Assembly: GCF_023115355.1 (NCBI RefSeq)
Contig: NZ_CP096019.1
Location: 806,001 to 870,000, forward strand
Direction of reading: 5' to 3'
DNA: 64,000 bases
From: Halocatena salina
GTDB lineage: Archaea; Halobacteriota; Halobacteria; Halobacteriales; Haloarculaceae
The notes beneath the pieces are model-generated. The model was not told where the DNA came from, did no database searches, and saw nothing but the letters and a program-made list of their open reading frames with translations. Both the position numbers and the translations under genes were made by a program. Below, one piece after another: positions 570 to 7,184 of this stretch (its first letter is position 1; every line of letters begins with the position of its first letter).

Positions 570-992
570 ATGGACTATCGGACTGTCGAAAGCAGTCGTG
601 AGTTCGTCGCTCGAATGGACCACGGTGTGGACTGGCGCGATCAGATCGAGACGTTTGCGGACGAGCGCGGGATCGATGCAGCGTTCTTTTATGGCTTGGG
701 TGCTGTACAGGACGCGGAGCTACTGTTTTACGATCACGACGCCCAAGAGTATCGTCCGATCACGTTCGAGGAGCCACTGGAAGTGACCGCGTGCGTCGGA
801 AACATCTCCAAACTCGACGGCGAGCCGTTTGCTCACACTCACATGACGCTTTCCGATAGCGAGGGACGGACGGTTGCAGGACACCTCGACTGGGCGACGA
901 CGTACGCGGGCGAGCTGTACGTTCGGGAGTTCGACACCGAGTTGGTTCGCCAGCGCGATGAGACGACGGACTTGGATCTCTGGGAGCTGTGA
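570..992 (+). CDS. PPC-domain (DUF296) DNA-binding-type protein
   Basis: This 140-aa protein is a single PPC/DUF296 domain, the fold found in plant AT-hook proteins and in stand-alone prokaryotic proteins. The recognisable parts are the FFYGLGAVQDAEL strand-turn near the start, the ACVGNISKLDGEPFAHTHMTLSD block with its conserved histidines (residues about 72-94), and the GHLDWATTYAGELYV block. Stand-alone archaeal members form trimers and may bind metal; their cellular role is poorly known. The stop codon overlaps the GTG start of polC in the sequence GTGA, so the two genes are co-transcribed and translationally coupled. That suggests a housekeeping or nucleoid role beside the replicative polymerase, but this is inference. 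Confidence 0.85.
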   Translation: MDYRTVESSREFVARMDHGVDWRDQIETFADERGIDAAFFYGLGAVQDAELLFYDHDAQEYRPITFEEPLEVTACVGNISKLDGEPFAHTHMTLSDSEGRTVAGHLDWATTYAGELYVREFDTELVRQRDETTDLDLWEL

Positions 993-3900
993 ACGCTGAG
1001 GAGCGCTATTTCGAGCAGATCGAAGATCGATTGGACGAGGCGTTTTCGGTCGCCCGCTCGGCCAAAGAACGCGGCGGAGATCCGAGTACGGAAGTGGAGA
1101 TCCCGGTGGCCAAGGACATGGCCGACCGCGTGGAGAACATCCTCGGTATCGAAGGGGTCGCACAACGGGTTCGAGAACTCGAAGGGCAGATGAGCCGCGA
1201 AGAGGCCGCGTTGACGCTAGCCGAAGATTTCGCCGAGGGACGGGTCGGTGAATACGAAACCACGGCAGGAATGATCGAAGGTGCGGTGCGAACCGCCGTC
1301 GCGCTGCTCACCGAGGGTGTCGTGGCGGCACCCATCGAGGGAATCGATCGTGTGGAAGTGCTCGAAAACGACGACGGTTCCCGGTTCGTTCGGGTGTTCT
1401 ACGCCGGTCCGATCCGTTCCGCTGGCGGGACCGCCCAAGCGCTGTCCGTGCTCGTCGCGGACTACGCTCGAACGCTGCTCGGGTTGGATCGGTACAAGCC
1501 TCGTGACGATGAGATCGAACGCTACGCCGAAGAGTTGGGTCTGTACGACAACGAAACGGGGCTACAGTACTCACCGAAAGACAAGGAGACGACGTTTATC
1601 GCTGAGCACTGTCCGATCATGCTCGATGGAGAGGCGACGGGCGAAACGGAGGTATCCGCCACCCGCGATTTGGAGCGCGTCGACACGAACAACCCTCGAG
1701 GTGGAATGTGTCTGGTGCTCGGGGAGGGGATCGCGCAGAAGGCCCCGAAGATTAAGCGGTACACCGGACAGCTCGAGGAGCTTGAATGGCCGTGGCTCGA
1801 CGATCTGATTGAGGGAACGATCGGTACTGACACCACAGACAGCTCCGAATCCGACACAGATGGCGACACCGATGCCGACAGCCAAGCGCCGGTCGTTGAA
1901 GACACACCGGCCTCGGAATCGGGACCTCCACGAGCGGAATCGACGACGAAGTTCCTCCGTGACCTCATCGCCGGTCGGCCCGTCTTTTCCCACCCCTCCC
2001 GAACTGGCGGCTTTCGGCTGCGGTACGGACGGGCGCGCAACCACGGCTTTGCGACCGCTGGCGTCCATCCTGCGACGATGCATCTGGTCGATGATTTTCT
2101 CGCAACCGGTACGCAGATCAAAACGGAACGCCCCGGGAAGGCTGCTGGTGTCGTACCCGTCGACACGATCGAGGGACCGACGGTTCGGCTGGCAAACGGC
2201 GAAGTGCGCCGCATCGACGATCCCGAGGAAGCCCGGTCGATCCGAAACGGGGTCGAAGCCATCCTCGATCTCGGGGAGTATCTCGTCAACTACGGGGAGT
2301 TCGTCGAGAACAACCATCCACTCGCCCCAGCGTCTTACACCGTCGAATGGTGGGTTCAGGAGTTCGATCGTGCCGGGGCAGACGTACAGGCCCTGCGGGA
2401 TGACCCGCACGTGGATCTCTCCGATCCCCCAGTGACACGGGCGATAGGGTGGGCCACCGAATACGAGGCCCCTCTTCACCCCGAATACACGTATTTGTGG
2501 CACGATCTCACTGTCGAGCAGTTCGACGAATTGGCCGATGCCGTCTCAGAGGGACGGATTTCCGAGACTGACGACACGCTGTTCGTCCCCCGAGCCAAGC
2601 CCACTCGGATCGCGCTCGAAACGCTGCTCGTCGAGCATACGACCGACGACGAAATCGTGATTCCCGACGCGAGCGCACTCGTCCGCTCGCTCGGACTGAC
2701 CGCGGATCTCGAACGGATGTGGTCGTTAAACGATCTGTCCGAGACCGCTCGGTCGTGGGGTGAAAGCGACGGGAGCAACGCCATCAAGGCTGTAAACGAG
2801 GTTGCGCCGTTCTCGGTTCGGGAGCGCGCACCGACCCGCGTTGGTAACCGGATGGGCCGCCCGGAGAAATCCGAAAAGCGCGAGTTGAACCCAGCGGTTC
2901 ACACGCTGTTCCCGATCGGTGAAGCTGGTGGCAGCCAGCGGGACGTCGCACAGGCGGCTGCTCACACGGAGTCGATGCGATCGACCACAGGAGAAGTCGA
3001 GTTGGAGATCGCACGCCGAGAGTGTGTCGACTGTGGAACGACGACGTTTACGGCCCGGTGTCCGGACTGTGGTGGGATCACCGAGCCGGTGTACGTCTGT
3101 GGTGATTGTGACATCCGTGTCGAACCCGATGAGTCCGGGCGGGCGGAATGTCCCCGGTGTGAGGAGCTTGCCACCCCCGTCGAGTACCGGACGATCGACG
3201 TGGATGAAACGTACCACGAGGCGTTGTCGGCCGTCGGAGAGCGGGAACACGCCTTCGAGATCCTCAAAGGGGTGAAAGGACTCACCTCCGAGCAGAAGGT
3301 TCCCGAACCGATGGAGAAGGGTATCCTGCGCGCGAAACACGACGTTTCGGCGTTCAAAGACGGGACGATCCGATACGACATGACGGATCTCCCGGTGACG
3401 GCAGTCCGGCCAGCCGAGTTGGACGTCACTGTCGAGCAGTTCCGCGAGCTGGGATACGAAACCGACATCGACGGCGAGCCGTTGCGCCACGACGATCAGC
3501 TGATCGAACTGCGAGTCCAAGACATCGTTCTTTCCAGTGGTGCAGCCGAGCACATGCTCAAAACGGCTGATTTCGTGGATGATCTCCTCAAACGCTACTA
3601 CGGGATGGAGCCGTTTTATGAGGTCGACGACCGCGACGATCTGGTGGGTGAACTAGTGTTCGGGATGGCACCACACACCTCGGCGGCGGTCGTCGGGCGC
3701 GTCGTCGGATTCACCGACGCCGCCGTCGGGTATGCGCATCCGTATTTTCACGCTGCAAAAAGACGGAACTGCGATGGTGACGAAGATTGCGTGATGTTGT
3801 TGATGGACGGCTTGTTGAACTTCAGCAAGCTGTATCTGCCGGATAAACGCGGTGGGAGTGTGACAGCGGACACCCGTCTTACCGCCTTCGGTCCGACAGG

Positions 3901-5938
3901 GAAACTCCGAACGCTCCCGATCGAGGAGTTGTGGACAGCTCTGGACTGTCCGATCGAGTACGACGGGAAGTTCGAGAAAAAGAGCTGTCTCGGGGAGGAA
4001 TGGACGACGTACGCGTTCGACGACCATTACGAGGCGACGCCCAAACCGATCGAGAAGGCCATCCGGTACCGCGTCGAGGACGAAGAGCTGCTCCGTGTCG
4101 AAACACAGTTCGGACGATCGCTGACGATCACAGACAACCACAGCCTCTTCCGGTACGACGACGGCATTGAGACCGTCTCCGGAGCGAAACTCGAAACCGG
4201 CGATCTGATCCTCGCACCCCGTCGGCTGGGAGTCGACGAAACGGAAACCACCATCGACGTGACCGACTGTCTGGAGACACCCCACGTCTTCATCGACGAT
4301 CCGGACGAGGAGAACCGACCCACAGAACGGGAGACCCTTCCCTTCGGGATGGTAGCAGACGACGACCCGTCTCATGGCTCTCGATCCGTTCCTACTATCA
4401 TGGAGATCGGCCGAAAGGACGCATTGGGCGGTCTCAACCGGTACATTCCCGTCGACGAGAAAGTCGCGTGGCTGCTCGGACTGTTCATCGCTGACGGCTC
4501 CCGTCGAGAACGACCGGCGCTTTCGCTCGCGGACGATGACGTCTTCGATCGTGTGATAACGATCGCAACGGGAACACTCGGATGTGATCCGATCGTTGAG
4601 ACCGAACGCGTGCAGTTCCCGACCGTGTTCGACGATGTGCTCGACTATCTCGGCTTTGCGGATACCGACGCTGACGGCGGCGGATTCACCGTTCCGGACT
4701 GTATCCTCCGTGGCGAGCGCCAGATCGTACAGTCGTTCCTTCGCGGATACATAGCTGGTGAACACGGCGGATGTGAGAAAACGTCTCATTCACGGATCGA
4801 TCTTCATGCGCGCAACGAGTCGGTCAAAGACGGGCTGGTGTTCCTACTCCATCGGCTCGGATTGGTCGCGGACATCACCCATCGTCCCACAAGCGAGCCA
4901 GCGTACACCCTCTCCGCGACTCGGGAGACCCAAGCCGACAGCGACGAGTCCGAGGAGGATCTCGTGGTCACCGTTCCGAACGCCTTGCTCGAACTCCGTG
5001 AGATGGTCCAGAACATCGGTCGACTCATCCCTCGGAAGTACACGCGCCGAGACACGATCCCCGTGACGAAGCTCCGAGAAATCGTCGACGCTCTTGATCG
5101 GCGCGACCTGTCGGCGACGGCCGAGACCCGGTTGAATCAGCTCCGTCCACTCGTCGAAGGCGATCTCTCGTATCTCAAAGTAACCGACATCGAACGCGTC
5201 GACTACGACGGCTACCTGTACGATCTACAGGTAGGCGGTGAGCCGATCTTCACCGCGAACTGGCTGTACGCCCACAACTCCATGGACGCACCGCTAGTAA
5301 TGTCCTCGCGAATCGATCCCACGGAGATCGACGACGAAGCCCACAACGTCGACATCGTTTCGTCGTATCCCCTCGACTTCTACGAAGCGACTCGGGAAAT
5401 GGCCGATGCCGACGAGGTCGACATCACGATCGCGGAGGACACACTCGGAACCGACGACCAGTATTCGGGCTTCGAACACACACACGACACCTCCGATCTC
5501 GCCGCCGGTCCGGATCTCTCATCGTATAAGACGCTCGGCTCGATGCTGGAGAAGATGGATGCCCAATTGGAACTCGCCCGAAAGCTCCGGGCGGTCGATG
5601 AGACCGACGTCGCAGAGCGTATCATCGAATACCACTTTCTCCCGGATCTCATCGGAAACCTCCGTGCGTTCGCCCGCCAAGAGACCCGGTGTTTGGACTG
5701 TAATAGGAAATACCGACGGATGCCGCTCTCCGGCGAGTGTCGGGAGTGTGGTGGTCGCGTGAACCTCACTGTCCATGAAGGATCGGTCAACAAATATCTC
5801 GACACCGCGATCCGCGTCGCAGAGGAGTTCGGCTGTCGAGAGTACACTAAACAACGACTCGAAATCCTCAAACGACAGCTCGAAAGTATCTTCGAAAACG
5901 ATCACAACAAACCCTCTACACTCGGAGACTTCATGTAA
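989..5938 (+). CDS. polC: DNA polymerase D large subunit DP2, with intein
   Basis: This is the catalytic large subunit of archaeal DNA polymerase D, which pairs with the small exonuclease subunit DP1 to replicate DNA. The precursor has 1649 residues; removal of the 474-residue intein leaves 1175, a normal DP2 length. Visible signatures are the N-terminal DP2 block with AGPIRSAGGTAQALSVLVAD (about residues 140-160), a Cys-rich zinc region CVDCGTTTF...CPDCGG (about 680-730), the catalytic-core KRGG/SMDAPLVMSSRIDP motif split by the intein, and the C-terminal zinc finger CLDCNRKYRRMPLSGECRECGG (about 1570-1592). The start is GTG 989, overlapping the PPC gene stop by four bases. A linker at about 280-310 is very acidic and probably disordered. 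The DP1 gene is not in this window. Confidence 0.97.
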   Translation: MNAEERYFEQIEDRLDEAFSVARSAKERGGDPSTEVEIPVAKDMADRVENILGIEGVAQRVRELEGQMSREEAALTLAEDFAEGRVGEYETTAGMIEGAVRTAVALLTEGVVAAPIEGIDRVEVLENDDGSRFVRVFYAGPIRSAGGTAQALSVLVADYARTLLGLDRYKPRDDEIERYAEELGLYDNETGLQYSPKDKETTFIAEHCPIMLDGEATGETEVSATRDLERVDTNNPRGGMCLVLGEGIAQKAPKIKRYTGQLEELEWPWLDDLIEGTIGTDTTDSSESDTDGDTDADSQAPVVEDTPASESGPPRAESTTKFLRDLIAGRPVFSHPSRTGGFRLRYGRARNHGFATAGVHPATMHLVDDFLATGTQIKTERPGKAAGVVPVDTIEGPTVRLANGEVRRIDDPEEARSIRNGVEAILDLGEYLVNYGEFVENNHPLAPASYTVEWWVQEFDRAGADVQALRDDPHVDLSDPPVTRAIGWATEYEAPLHPEYTYLWHDLTVEQFDELADAVSEGRISETDDTLFVPRAKPTRIALETLLVEHTTDDEIVIPDASALVRSLGLTADLERMWSLNDLSETARSWGESDGSNAIKAVNEVAPFSVRERAPTRVGNRMGRPEKSEKRELNPAVHTLFPIGEAGGSQRDVAQAAAHTESMRSTTGEVELEIARRECVDCGTTTFTARCPDCGGITEPVYVCGDCDIRVEPDESGRAECPRCEELATPVEYRTIDVDETYHEALSAVGEREHAFEILKGVKGLTSEQKVPEPMEKGILRAKHDVSAFKDGTIRYDMTDLPVTAVRPAELDVTVEQFRELGYETDIDGEPLRHDDQLIELRVQDIVLSSGAAEHMLKTADFVDDLLKRYYGMEPFYEVDDRDDLVGELVFGMAPHTSAAVVGRVVGFTDAAVGYAHPYFHAAKRRNCDGDEDCVMLLMDGLLNFSKLYLPDKRGGSVTADTRLTAFGPTGKLRTLPIEELWTALDCPIEYDGKFEKKSCLGEEWTTYAFDDHYEATPKPIEKAIRYRVEDEELLRVETQFGRSLTITDNHSLFRYDDGIETVSGAKLETGDLILAPRRLGVDETETTIDVTDCLETPHVFIDDPDEENRPTERETLPFGMVADDDPSHGSRSVPTIMEIGRKDALGGLNRYIPVDEKVAWLLGLFIADGSRRERPALSLADDDVFDRVITIATGTLGCDPIVETERVQFPTVFDDVLDYLGFADTDADGGGFTVPDCILRGERQIVQSFLRGYIAGEHGGCEKTSHSRIDLHARNESVKDGLVFLLHRLGLVADITHRPTSEPAYTLSATRETQADSDESEEDLVVTVPNALLELREMVQNIGRLIPRKYTRRDTIPVTKLREIVDALDRRDLSATAETRLNQLRPLVEGDLSYLKVTDIERVDYDGYLYDLQVGGEPIFTANWLYAHNSMDAPLVMSSRIDPTEIDDEAHNVDIVSSYPLDFYEATREMADADEVDITIAEDTLGTDDQYSGFEHTHDTSDLAAGPDLSSYKTLGSMLEKMDAQLELARKLRAVDETDVAERIIEYHFLPDLIGNLRAFARQETRCLDCNRKYRRMPLSGECRECGGRVNLTVHEGSVNKYLDTAIRVAEEFGCREYTKQRLEILKRQLESIFENDHNKPSTLGDFM
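3857..5278 (+). mobile_element. Intein with LAGLIDADG homing endonuclease in polC
   Basis: The insertion splits the DP2 active-site motif between KRGG and SMDAPLVM. It spans 474 residues, from Ser957 to Asn1430 of the precursor. Splicing motifs are present: a Ser nucleophile at position 1 (SVTADTRL), a block-B TxxH (TITDNHSLF), and a C-terminal block ending in AHN before Ser+1. A LAGLIDADG-type endonuclease domain is present. Its first motif, LLGLFIADG, is intact, but the second, FLRGYIAGEHGG, lacks the usual Asp-Gly ending. Haloarchaeal polC genes are known to carry inteins at this conserved site. Self-splicing is expected; the endonuclease may be weakened. Confidence 0.92.
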
Positions 5939-6009
5939 ACCATAGATCTTTGGGACCGTCTCATCGTCGCCGAGAGGGGGACTTTCTCTCGCAACGGCAA
6001 GCCTTATGC

Positions 6010-6315
6010 TCATTGCTAACTAGCATCAAGATGTAGGAGCGACGGGGATACACTAGACGATTCGATCCAGTTCGTACGGAACTGGATCGGATGAGAGACA
6101 AAACCGAAGGCCCCATAACAGGGGAACGAGGTGAACGCCTCGAAGGAGAACCGAAACGGTCCGGTTCTCATCTGCGACAGCGGATGAGAAAGAAGACCAA
6201 GTAGCGGATCTCGTGAAAACGGGTTTCGTGAAACTGGGAAACCAGCACAGTCGCAAGGATCGTGGAAAACGTCTCCCGTCTGGGTCCAAGCCGTGGCTGT
6301 TACGCTTTTCATCGT
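6010..6315 (+). ncRNA. Candidate structured non-coding RNA or structured relic
   Basis: This 300-base gap between polC and the next gene lacks a credible reading frame but contains many local hairpins. I see an 11-bp perfect stem at 6063/6089 with a 5-base loop; CCCC/GGGG at 6111/6124; CGAGG/CCTCG at 6127/6142; an 8-bp stem at 6146/6169; an 11-bp stem at 6165/6190 with one G-T pair and a GACA loop; a 5-bp stem at 6210/6223 closed by GAAA; and a 4-bp stem at 6234/6245 closed by GAAA. The stems at 6146 and 6165 compete for the same bases. I could not match it to RNase P RNA (no GAGGAAAGTC core), SRP RNA (no GGAG...GGAGCA helix) or a group II domain V. Strand is assumed from the GNRA loops. Confidence 0.5.
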
Positions 6316-6338: not shown

Positions 6339-7184
6339 ATGTCGAACCAGGCGATGCTCTCAGGCTCTACACACATCGGTCGGGTGTTCCTTCGTGTCGG
6401 TGATCTCGATCGAACCGTCGAGTACTACGAGACAACCATCGGTCTCACGATCCACCGCCACGACGCCGATCGAGCGGTTTTGGGAACGGAAACCGAATCG
6501 CTGTTGGTGGTGAACGCTACACCGTCCGTTCCCCCGCGAGAACGAACCGAAACGGGACTGTTCCACGTGGCGTTTCGGGTGCCGTCACGGACGGCGTTAG
6601 CCGCCACACTCGGCCGGATTCGTGATCACGAACGGTGGCAGTTGGACGGGGCGTCTGATCATCTTGTCAGCGAGGCGTTATACGCCACCGATCCGGAGGG
6701 AAACGGGGTAGAAGTGTACTGTGACCGGCCGCGAGACGCGTGGCCGACCCCAGCGGACGGCTCTGTGGGTATGGAGACGCGACCGTTGGACATCGAATCG
6801 TTGCCAGAACACTCTCGGGAGCCGACGGTGCCCACCGACACGACCGTCGGCCACGTGCATCTCGAAAGCTCTTCACTCGCTGCCGCGCGGGCGTTTTACG
6901 TCGATGATCTCGGTTTCCGTGTCCGGGATCAGTTCGATGAGTCGGCGCTGTTCGTCGCTGCGGGCGACTACCATCACCACGTCGGACTCAACACGTGGAA
7001 CGAACGGACGGAACCACACACGGGTAGAGGTTTAGATCGGTTCGAACTCGTGGTGCCCGACCGGCACACGCTCGACACGGTACAGTCGCGCTTGGACGCG
7101 AGCGGACGACACTTCACCACCACAGAGGGCAGCATCGAAGTTTCCGATCCGGACGGAATCGATCTCAGAGTGATCACCGAGTGA
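6339..7184 (+). CDS. Two-domain VOC (glyoxalase/extradiol dioxygenase-like) protein
   Basis: The 281-aa protein has two vicinal-oxygen-chelate domains in tandem. Domain 1 (about 12-135) starts HIGRVFLRVGDLDRTVEYYE and ends in EGNGVEVYCDRP. Domain 2 (about 155-280) starts VGHVHLESSSLAAARAFYVDDLGF and ends in DPDGIDLRV. Candidate metal ligands are His12 and the Glu of GVEVYC in domain 1, and the His of VGHVHL and the HHVGLN histidines in domain 2. This arrangement matches the CatE-like catechol-2,3-dioxygenase/glyoxalase group common in haloarchaea, but the substrate cannot be read from sequence. ATG 6339 is chosen because homologous proteins begin shortly before the first domain. No operon partner is evident; the next gene is convergent, with one base between the stops. 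Confidence 0.88.
   Translation: MSNQAMLSGSTHIGRVFLRVGDLDRTVEYYETTIGLTIHRHDADRAVLGTETESLLVVNATPSVPPRERTETGLFHVAFRVPSRTALAATLGRIRDHERWQLDGASDHLVSEALYATDPEGNGVEVYCDRPRDAWPTPADGSVGMETRPLDIESLPEHSREPTVPTDTTVGHVHLESSSLAAARAFYVDDLGFRVRDQFDESALFVAAGDYHHHVGLNTWNERTEPHTGRGLDRFELVVPDRHTLDTVQSRLDASGRHFTTTEGSIEVSDPDGIDLRVITE

Follow-up and report, generated by a model that had tools for sequence, protein, structure and literature searches.

A hairpin-rich locus downstream of polC

The window (the whole 64,000-nt stretch of Halocatena salina DNA that was analysed) contains a non-coding, hairpin-rich stretch with the gene for the large subunit of DNA polymerase D (polC) on its 5' side and a VOC-family gene on its 3' side. 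Folding confirmed, on the + strand, the hairpins that a sequence-only reading had placed here, at a stability far beyond that of shuffled sequences: the minimum free energy of positions 6010-6315 (+) was -126 kcal/mol compared to -90.7 +/- 5.3 kcal/mol for dinucleotide shuffles (z = -6.68; 0 of 100 equally low), and the opposite (-) strand of the same stretch gave a z of -2.8. The true unit of the RNA is 6032-6304 (+), i.e. ~270 nt here and up to ~500 nt in other genomes. The features of the locus, with the helices of the consensus fold numbered P1 to P9, are as follows:

989-5938: polC (DP2, large subunit of DNA polymerase D), with an intein-like insertion
6003..6008 (+): TATA-box-like element CTTATG, putatively the RNA's own promoter; near-fixed spacing across loci
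6032..6304 (+): structured non-coding RNA gene (z = -6.7; conserved across the order, 80 of 295 genomes; consensus fold mapped onto the window)
6032..6045 (+): 5' strand of P1a, pairing with 6291-6304; terminal helix, with two mismatches here; 82.5% of cells paired compared to 40-43% with the partner slid; 217 double-change cells
6046..6059 (+): P1b (6046-6049/6284-6287) and P1c (6053-6059/6277-6283) with an ACA bulge between them; 98-99% of cells paired
6060..6092 (+): P2 hairpin; 179 double-change cells
6095..6141 (+): P3 arm of the consensus fold, with P3 (6095-6099/6137-6141), P3b (6103-6105/6130-6132) and P3c (6111-6114/6121-6124)
6145..6149 (+): 5' strand of P4 (GGAGA), pairing with 6272-6276; stacked directly on P1c, with covariation
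6156..6162 (+): 5' strand of P5, pairing with 6257-6263; both sides changed in 7 of 7 pairs
6167..6188 (+): P6 hairpin, from covariation and the consensus fold; self-complementarity of the loop, seen in most other genera, is lacking here
6192..6207 (+): most conserved stretch of the alignment, GAAGACCAAGUAGCGG (consensus GAAGRCCAASUANCGG), containing the 5' strand of P7 (6195-6197, pairing with 6250-6252)
6204..6229 (+): P8 hairpin with a GNRA loop (GAAA, 6215-6218); the loop is of GNRA type in ~80 of 85 sequences
6234..6245 (+): P9 hairpin CUGGGAAACCAG with a GAAA loop; conserved helix, with large insertions at P9 in other genera
6264..6290 (+): conserved 3' stretch GGAAAACGUCUCCCGUCUGGGUCCAAG, giving the 3' strands of P4, P1c and P1b
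6306..6309 (+): U-run directly 3' of the terminal helix, a possible terminator judging from its sequence
6339-7184: VOC-family gene

The protein of the intein-like insertion in polC starts near RGGSVTADTRLTAF and ends YAHN before SMDAPLV.

The predicted architecture comprises a terminal helix of ~25 bp that joins the ends of the RNA (P1a-c), a four-way junction and nine helices. In the consensus, P1a (~14 bp), P1b (4 bp) and P1c (7 bp) lead to the junction of P1c, P2, P3 and P4, where P4 stacks on P1c, and from there to P5 to P9. This long-range terminal helix (6032-6059/6277-6304) had been missed by the sequence-only reading, which had singled out two GAAA hairpins; one of them is the conserved helix P9, while the other, CCGAAACGG at ~6151-6159, is not a conserved helix. 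The same reading had seen two stems sharing bases, as in a switching RNA. The stem at 6165/6190 is real and corresponds to P6, but the stem 6146-6153/6162-6169, perfect here, is private to this genome: in 11 relatives, the sequence allows no more than 1 to 6 of the 8 pairs. By this comparison the stem is a coincidence of one genome, lying across the conserved helices P4 and P6, and because the competing stem exists in this genome only, a switch is not supported. In the P9 loop of five loci (L013, L018, L021, L094 and L099), we observed large lineage-specific insertions built from short GGTGAAANNCC-type repeats.

Covariation had been proposed as support for a structured RNA if seen in three or more stems, and was found in more than ten. 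Both sides had changed in 42 of the 66 pairs of a 12-sequence alignment. For the core, 83 distinct sequences had 93.2% of cells paired compared to 37-46% with the partner slid, and double changes in 30 of 35 pairs, with none of 500 shuffles reaching any observed value; being fitted to the model, the alignment leans toward structure. The 5' domain (P1a, P1b, P1c, P2 and P3), which was aligned by sequence alone but had its structure predicted from the same alignment, was 82-99% paired compared to at most 70% when slid. Overall, every predicted helix is backed by compensatory changes.

Of 56 distinct 4-nt P6 loops, 42 were self-complementary, with four kinds only (CCGG, CAUG, CGCG and CUAG), and this is far above the expectation of ~1 in 16, which suggests loop-loop dimerisation of the RNA via P6 in many genera. 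In the P6 loop comparison, the palindrome was absent from the window's own genus and from Haladaptatus, and the suggestion does not extend to the window's own genus.

A TATA-like hexamer was present at 56 of 63 loci, a median of 43 nt ahead of P1b, compared to 5% of random windows. The 5' start of the RNA is predicted at the 5' end of P1a, ~26 nt past the TATA centre, and the TATA spacing across loci places it at P1a or a few nt off. U-rich tails follow the terminal helix in many loci. Judged by these signals in the DNA, 6032-6304 is an autonomous RNA gene with a dedicated promoter signal and a putative transcript. Many loci (e.g. L096, L101, L088 and L041) share a recurrent, partly palindromic GGTANCATAC-like element, located after the TATA box and ahead of the predicted start, which may be an operator.

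Distribution and comparison with known RNA classes

The RNA has no second copy in its own genome, where blastn finds the stretch once, and is present in many haloarchaea as two conserved blocks. Of 295 Halobacteriales genomes, 80 gave hits with a covariance model of the core (146 positions). These genomes belong to 35 of 88 genera and to eleven families, and the hits score up to 149 bits, usually with one copy per genome; the conservation in related haloarchaea that the sequence-only reading had proposed to check is order-wide. One locus (L075; G226:C2:120500-122400) holds two tandem copies ~440 nt apart. A pattern built on the most conserved stretch matched 52 loci in 84,980 species genomes, all of them haloarchaeal. 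No RNA was found in viral contigs and phage records, and four plasmid records (Natrinema, Halorussus) carry it. A wider model (85 sequences) added three homologues in other orders of the phylum, at 44-64 bits. Two homologues of family f26 (L221 and L222) have near-identical 5'-domain arms, GGCGCCC[CU]AUGAUGGC, which the haloarchaeal copies do not have.

Rfam covariance models run over the window gave no match at the gathering score and none that was convincing in a permissive scan, and ARAGORN called no tRNA or tmRNA at the RNA. The earlier view that it resembles neither RNase P RNA, SRP RNA, group II domain V nor a tRNA was thus borne out, and SRP RNA, tRNA, tmRNA, group I and II introns and other Rfam families were also without a match at the outgroup homologues. 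RNase P RNA or a paralogue of it was rejected (no RF00373 match here; the genuine gene of this genome is separate, at C1:2062517-2062828 with 173.6 bits), as was an IS200/IS605-type element (single copy in the genome, no mobile-RNA match). With no Rfam match, order-wide conservation and compensatory changes in all helices, we are almost certain that this is a real new structured RNA family, as had been suspected; it is large, well supported and missing from the Rfam release searched. We found no earlier description of it in the literature, of which preprints and subscription journals were thinly covered.

Some known RNAs are nevertheless similar in part. Archaeal RNase P RNA (RF00373) is likewise a large archaeal structured RNA whose terminal helix joins its ends, and shares the link to RNase P biology, but the present RNA does not match its Rfam model and has a separate gene. 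OLE, GOLLD, ROOL and raiA are large, ornate, conserved non-coding RNAs with GNRA loops and possible loop-loop dimerisation. The present RNA resembles them in size and conservation, in its GNRA loops and in its possible dimerisation, whereas it is archaeal, tied to the protein HARP (see below) and without an Rfam match to any of them. C/D box sRNAs are archaeal RNAs as well and can be circularised by the ligase Rnl3 (PMC12153264), but the present RNA is much larger and multi-branched, and has no Rfam match.

Within the window's genus, the RNA lies downstream of polC and in some genomes upstream of the VOC gene, as a riboswitch or other cis-regulatory element of either gene might; in other genera, however, the neighbours are different ones, which largely refutes such a role. 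The RNA moreover has its own TATA box and 3' U-run, and the mutually exclusive stem is not conserved beyond this genome, and we consider a cis-regulatory element highly improbable. Even less credible is a decayed intron or element, as the sequence-only reading had allowed, or a mobile element or chance hairpins. The patchy distribution and the tandem copies in one genome (G226) would suit a decayed element, but the RNA is single-copy in its own genome and mostly so elsewhere, lacks a match to intron or other RNA-family models, was absent from the viral contigs and phage records searched, carries a promoter signal of its own and retains the fold in several families. The covariation in all helices refutes decay and chance alike.

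Association of the RNA with HARP and Rnl3

A protein of ~220 aa that recurs as a neighbour of the RNA is HARP (NCBIfam RNA_lig_partner TIGR03875, 254-262 bits; Pfam PIN_5, 258 bits). Of the 295 genomes searched for the RNA, 119 (~40%) had HARP above the cut-off and 84 had the Rnl3 ligase (TIGR01209), in each case along with HARP. Both the RNA (80 genomes) and HARP were present in 76 genomes, giving an odds ratio of 76 and a Fisher P value of 5e-34 with kinship ignored. Since related genomes are not independent, three controls were added. Shuffling of the RNA labels within genera, compiled by hand from the listed genomes with unlisted double negatives left out, gave a P value of 1.3e-4. Within the window's genus, where HARP was searched after the RNA calls, agreement was complete (7/7): the five genomes with the RNA all have HARP and the two without it both lack HARP. 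Outside the order, all three genomes with the RNA have HARP compared to 25 of 71 in a sample (P = 0.04), and these three HARPs cluster on the tree, weakly (80/67). An RNA depending on HARP would occur with it, and this was found with few exceptions, G008, G068 and G114 being among the four genomes with the RNA and no HARP. The RNA was also present in 35 of 35 genomes having HARP and no Rnl3, compared to 41 of 84 having both (P = 7e-9).

In 43 genomes with HARP, no RNA was found. Such absences are uncertain because the genome search scored few first-look candidates per genome; it missed at least one copy (G240), which was recovered by a mixed DNA query. The wider model found nothing in 40 genomes with HARP and no RNA, nor in 40 genomes without HARP above the cut-off, and no RNA lay beside HARP-Rnl3 within stretches of 5-8 kb around the pair in genomes with HARP and no RNA. 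In genus g5, the absence looks real.

The RNA adjoins HARP in Haladaptatus, Halorussus, Halorarius, Halegenticoccus, Halostella and other genera. The two are head to head in Haladaptatus, Halorussus, Halegenticoccus and other genomes of family f4, and tail to tail in Halorarius and genomes of families f5 and f13; in one Halostella genome (G107), the order is HARP, Rnl3, RNA. Traced over a tree of 82 HARPs, adjacency to the RNA requires 4-5 changes of state, and well-supported branches force at least two of these. A clade of 20 HARPs, all adjacent to the RNA, covers four families, which suggests that HARP and the RNA were transferred jointly. In two further Halostella genomes (G068 and G114), the RNA still occupies the same locus while the HARP-Rnl3 segment of ~2 kb is missing, and G114 retains a scar upstream of HARP. 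In genomes with Rnl3, including the window's own, the RNA is mostly far from HARP. The window's genome has HARP and Rnl3 as a divergent pair (C2:54059-55911) on another replicon, apart from the RNA; this pair lies on a 532-kb contig (L108; G000:C2:53500-57000).

We consider a functional link of some kind between the RNA and HARP likely.

Possible roles of the RNA beside HARP

The stretch is probably the gene of a new autonomous structured RNA family that works together with HARP, a protein-only RNase P. Between roles as substrate, cofactor or regulator, we lean slightly and tentatively toward an action of HARP on the terminal helix rather than a stable partnership. By analogy with its reading of the acceptor/T-arm helix of pre-tRNA, HARP would recognise the long terminal helix P1 and trim or otherwise act on the 5' end of the RNA, leaving a monophosphate end beside the 3' end. 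In genomes having Rnl3, this ligase could then seal the adjoining ends into a circle, which the meeting of the ends in a helix would permit. The mechanism as a whole is conjectural and somewhat doubtful, and the predicted start, at P1a or a few nt from it, speaks against trimming because it leaves little leader for HARP to remove.

Alternatively, the RNA would serve HARP as a stable partner, scaffold or regulator, either within an RNP or with P1 as a tRNA-like decoy restraining the nuclease. The same co-occurrence and neighbourhood evidence is consistent with this, as is the scarcity of 5' leader, and the dimers suggested by self-complementary P6 loops would suit an oligomeric protein; but the RNA stays in Halostella genomes without HARP, HARP stays in genomes in which no RNA was found, and the palindromic loop is missing from the window's genus and Haladaptatus, and we rate a stable partner or regulator as rather unlikely. 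It is less likely still that the RNA functions independently and merely belongs to the same accessory gene set as HARP or is favoured by the same habitats. Both are indeed patchy and on different replicons in the window's genome, and HARPs with an RNA neighbour span four families on the tree, as co-transfer would give. A shared accessory set, however, sits poorly with the 7/7 match in the window's genus although the two are not adjacent there, with the RNA in all 35 Rnl3-less genomes having HARP, and with the several gene arrangements.

The joint action of HARP and the RNA, which we prefer, touches on earlier work. Seshadri and Gopalan (2025; PMC12153264), who described that HARP and the circularising ligase Rnl3 co-occur, asked for the real substrate of HARP and proposed C/D box RNAs as HARP/Rnl3 substrates, matured by both, and named no dedicated RNA. 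The present RNA tracks HARP similarly to Rnl3, but here a specific RNA accompanies HARP, even without Rnl3, and is a different and more specific candidate than C/D box RNAs. An RNA that comes and goes with HARP offers a concrete candidate partner or substrate for it. It is a real possibility, though short of an even chance, that HARP is not protein-only here and either forms an RNP with a dedicated, possibly dimerising RNA or chiefly processes that RNA; if true, this would explain the absent growth defect upon HARP deletion.
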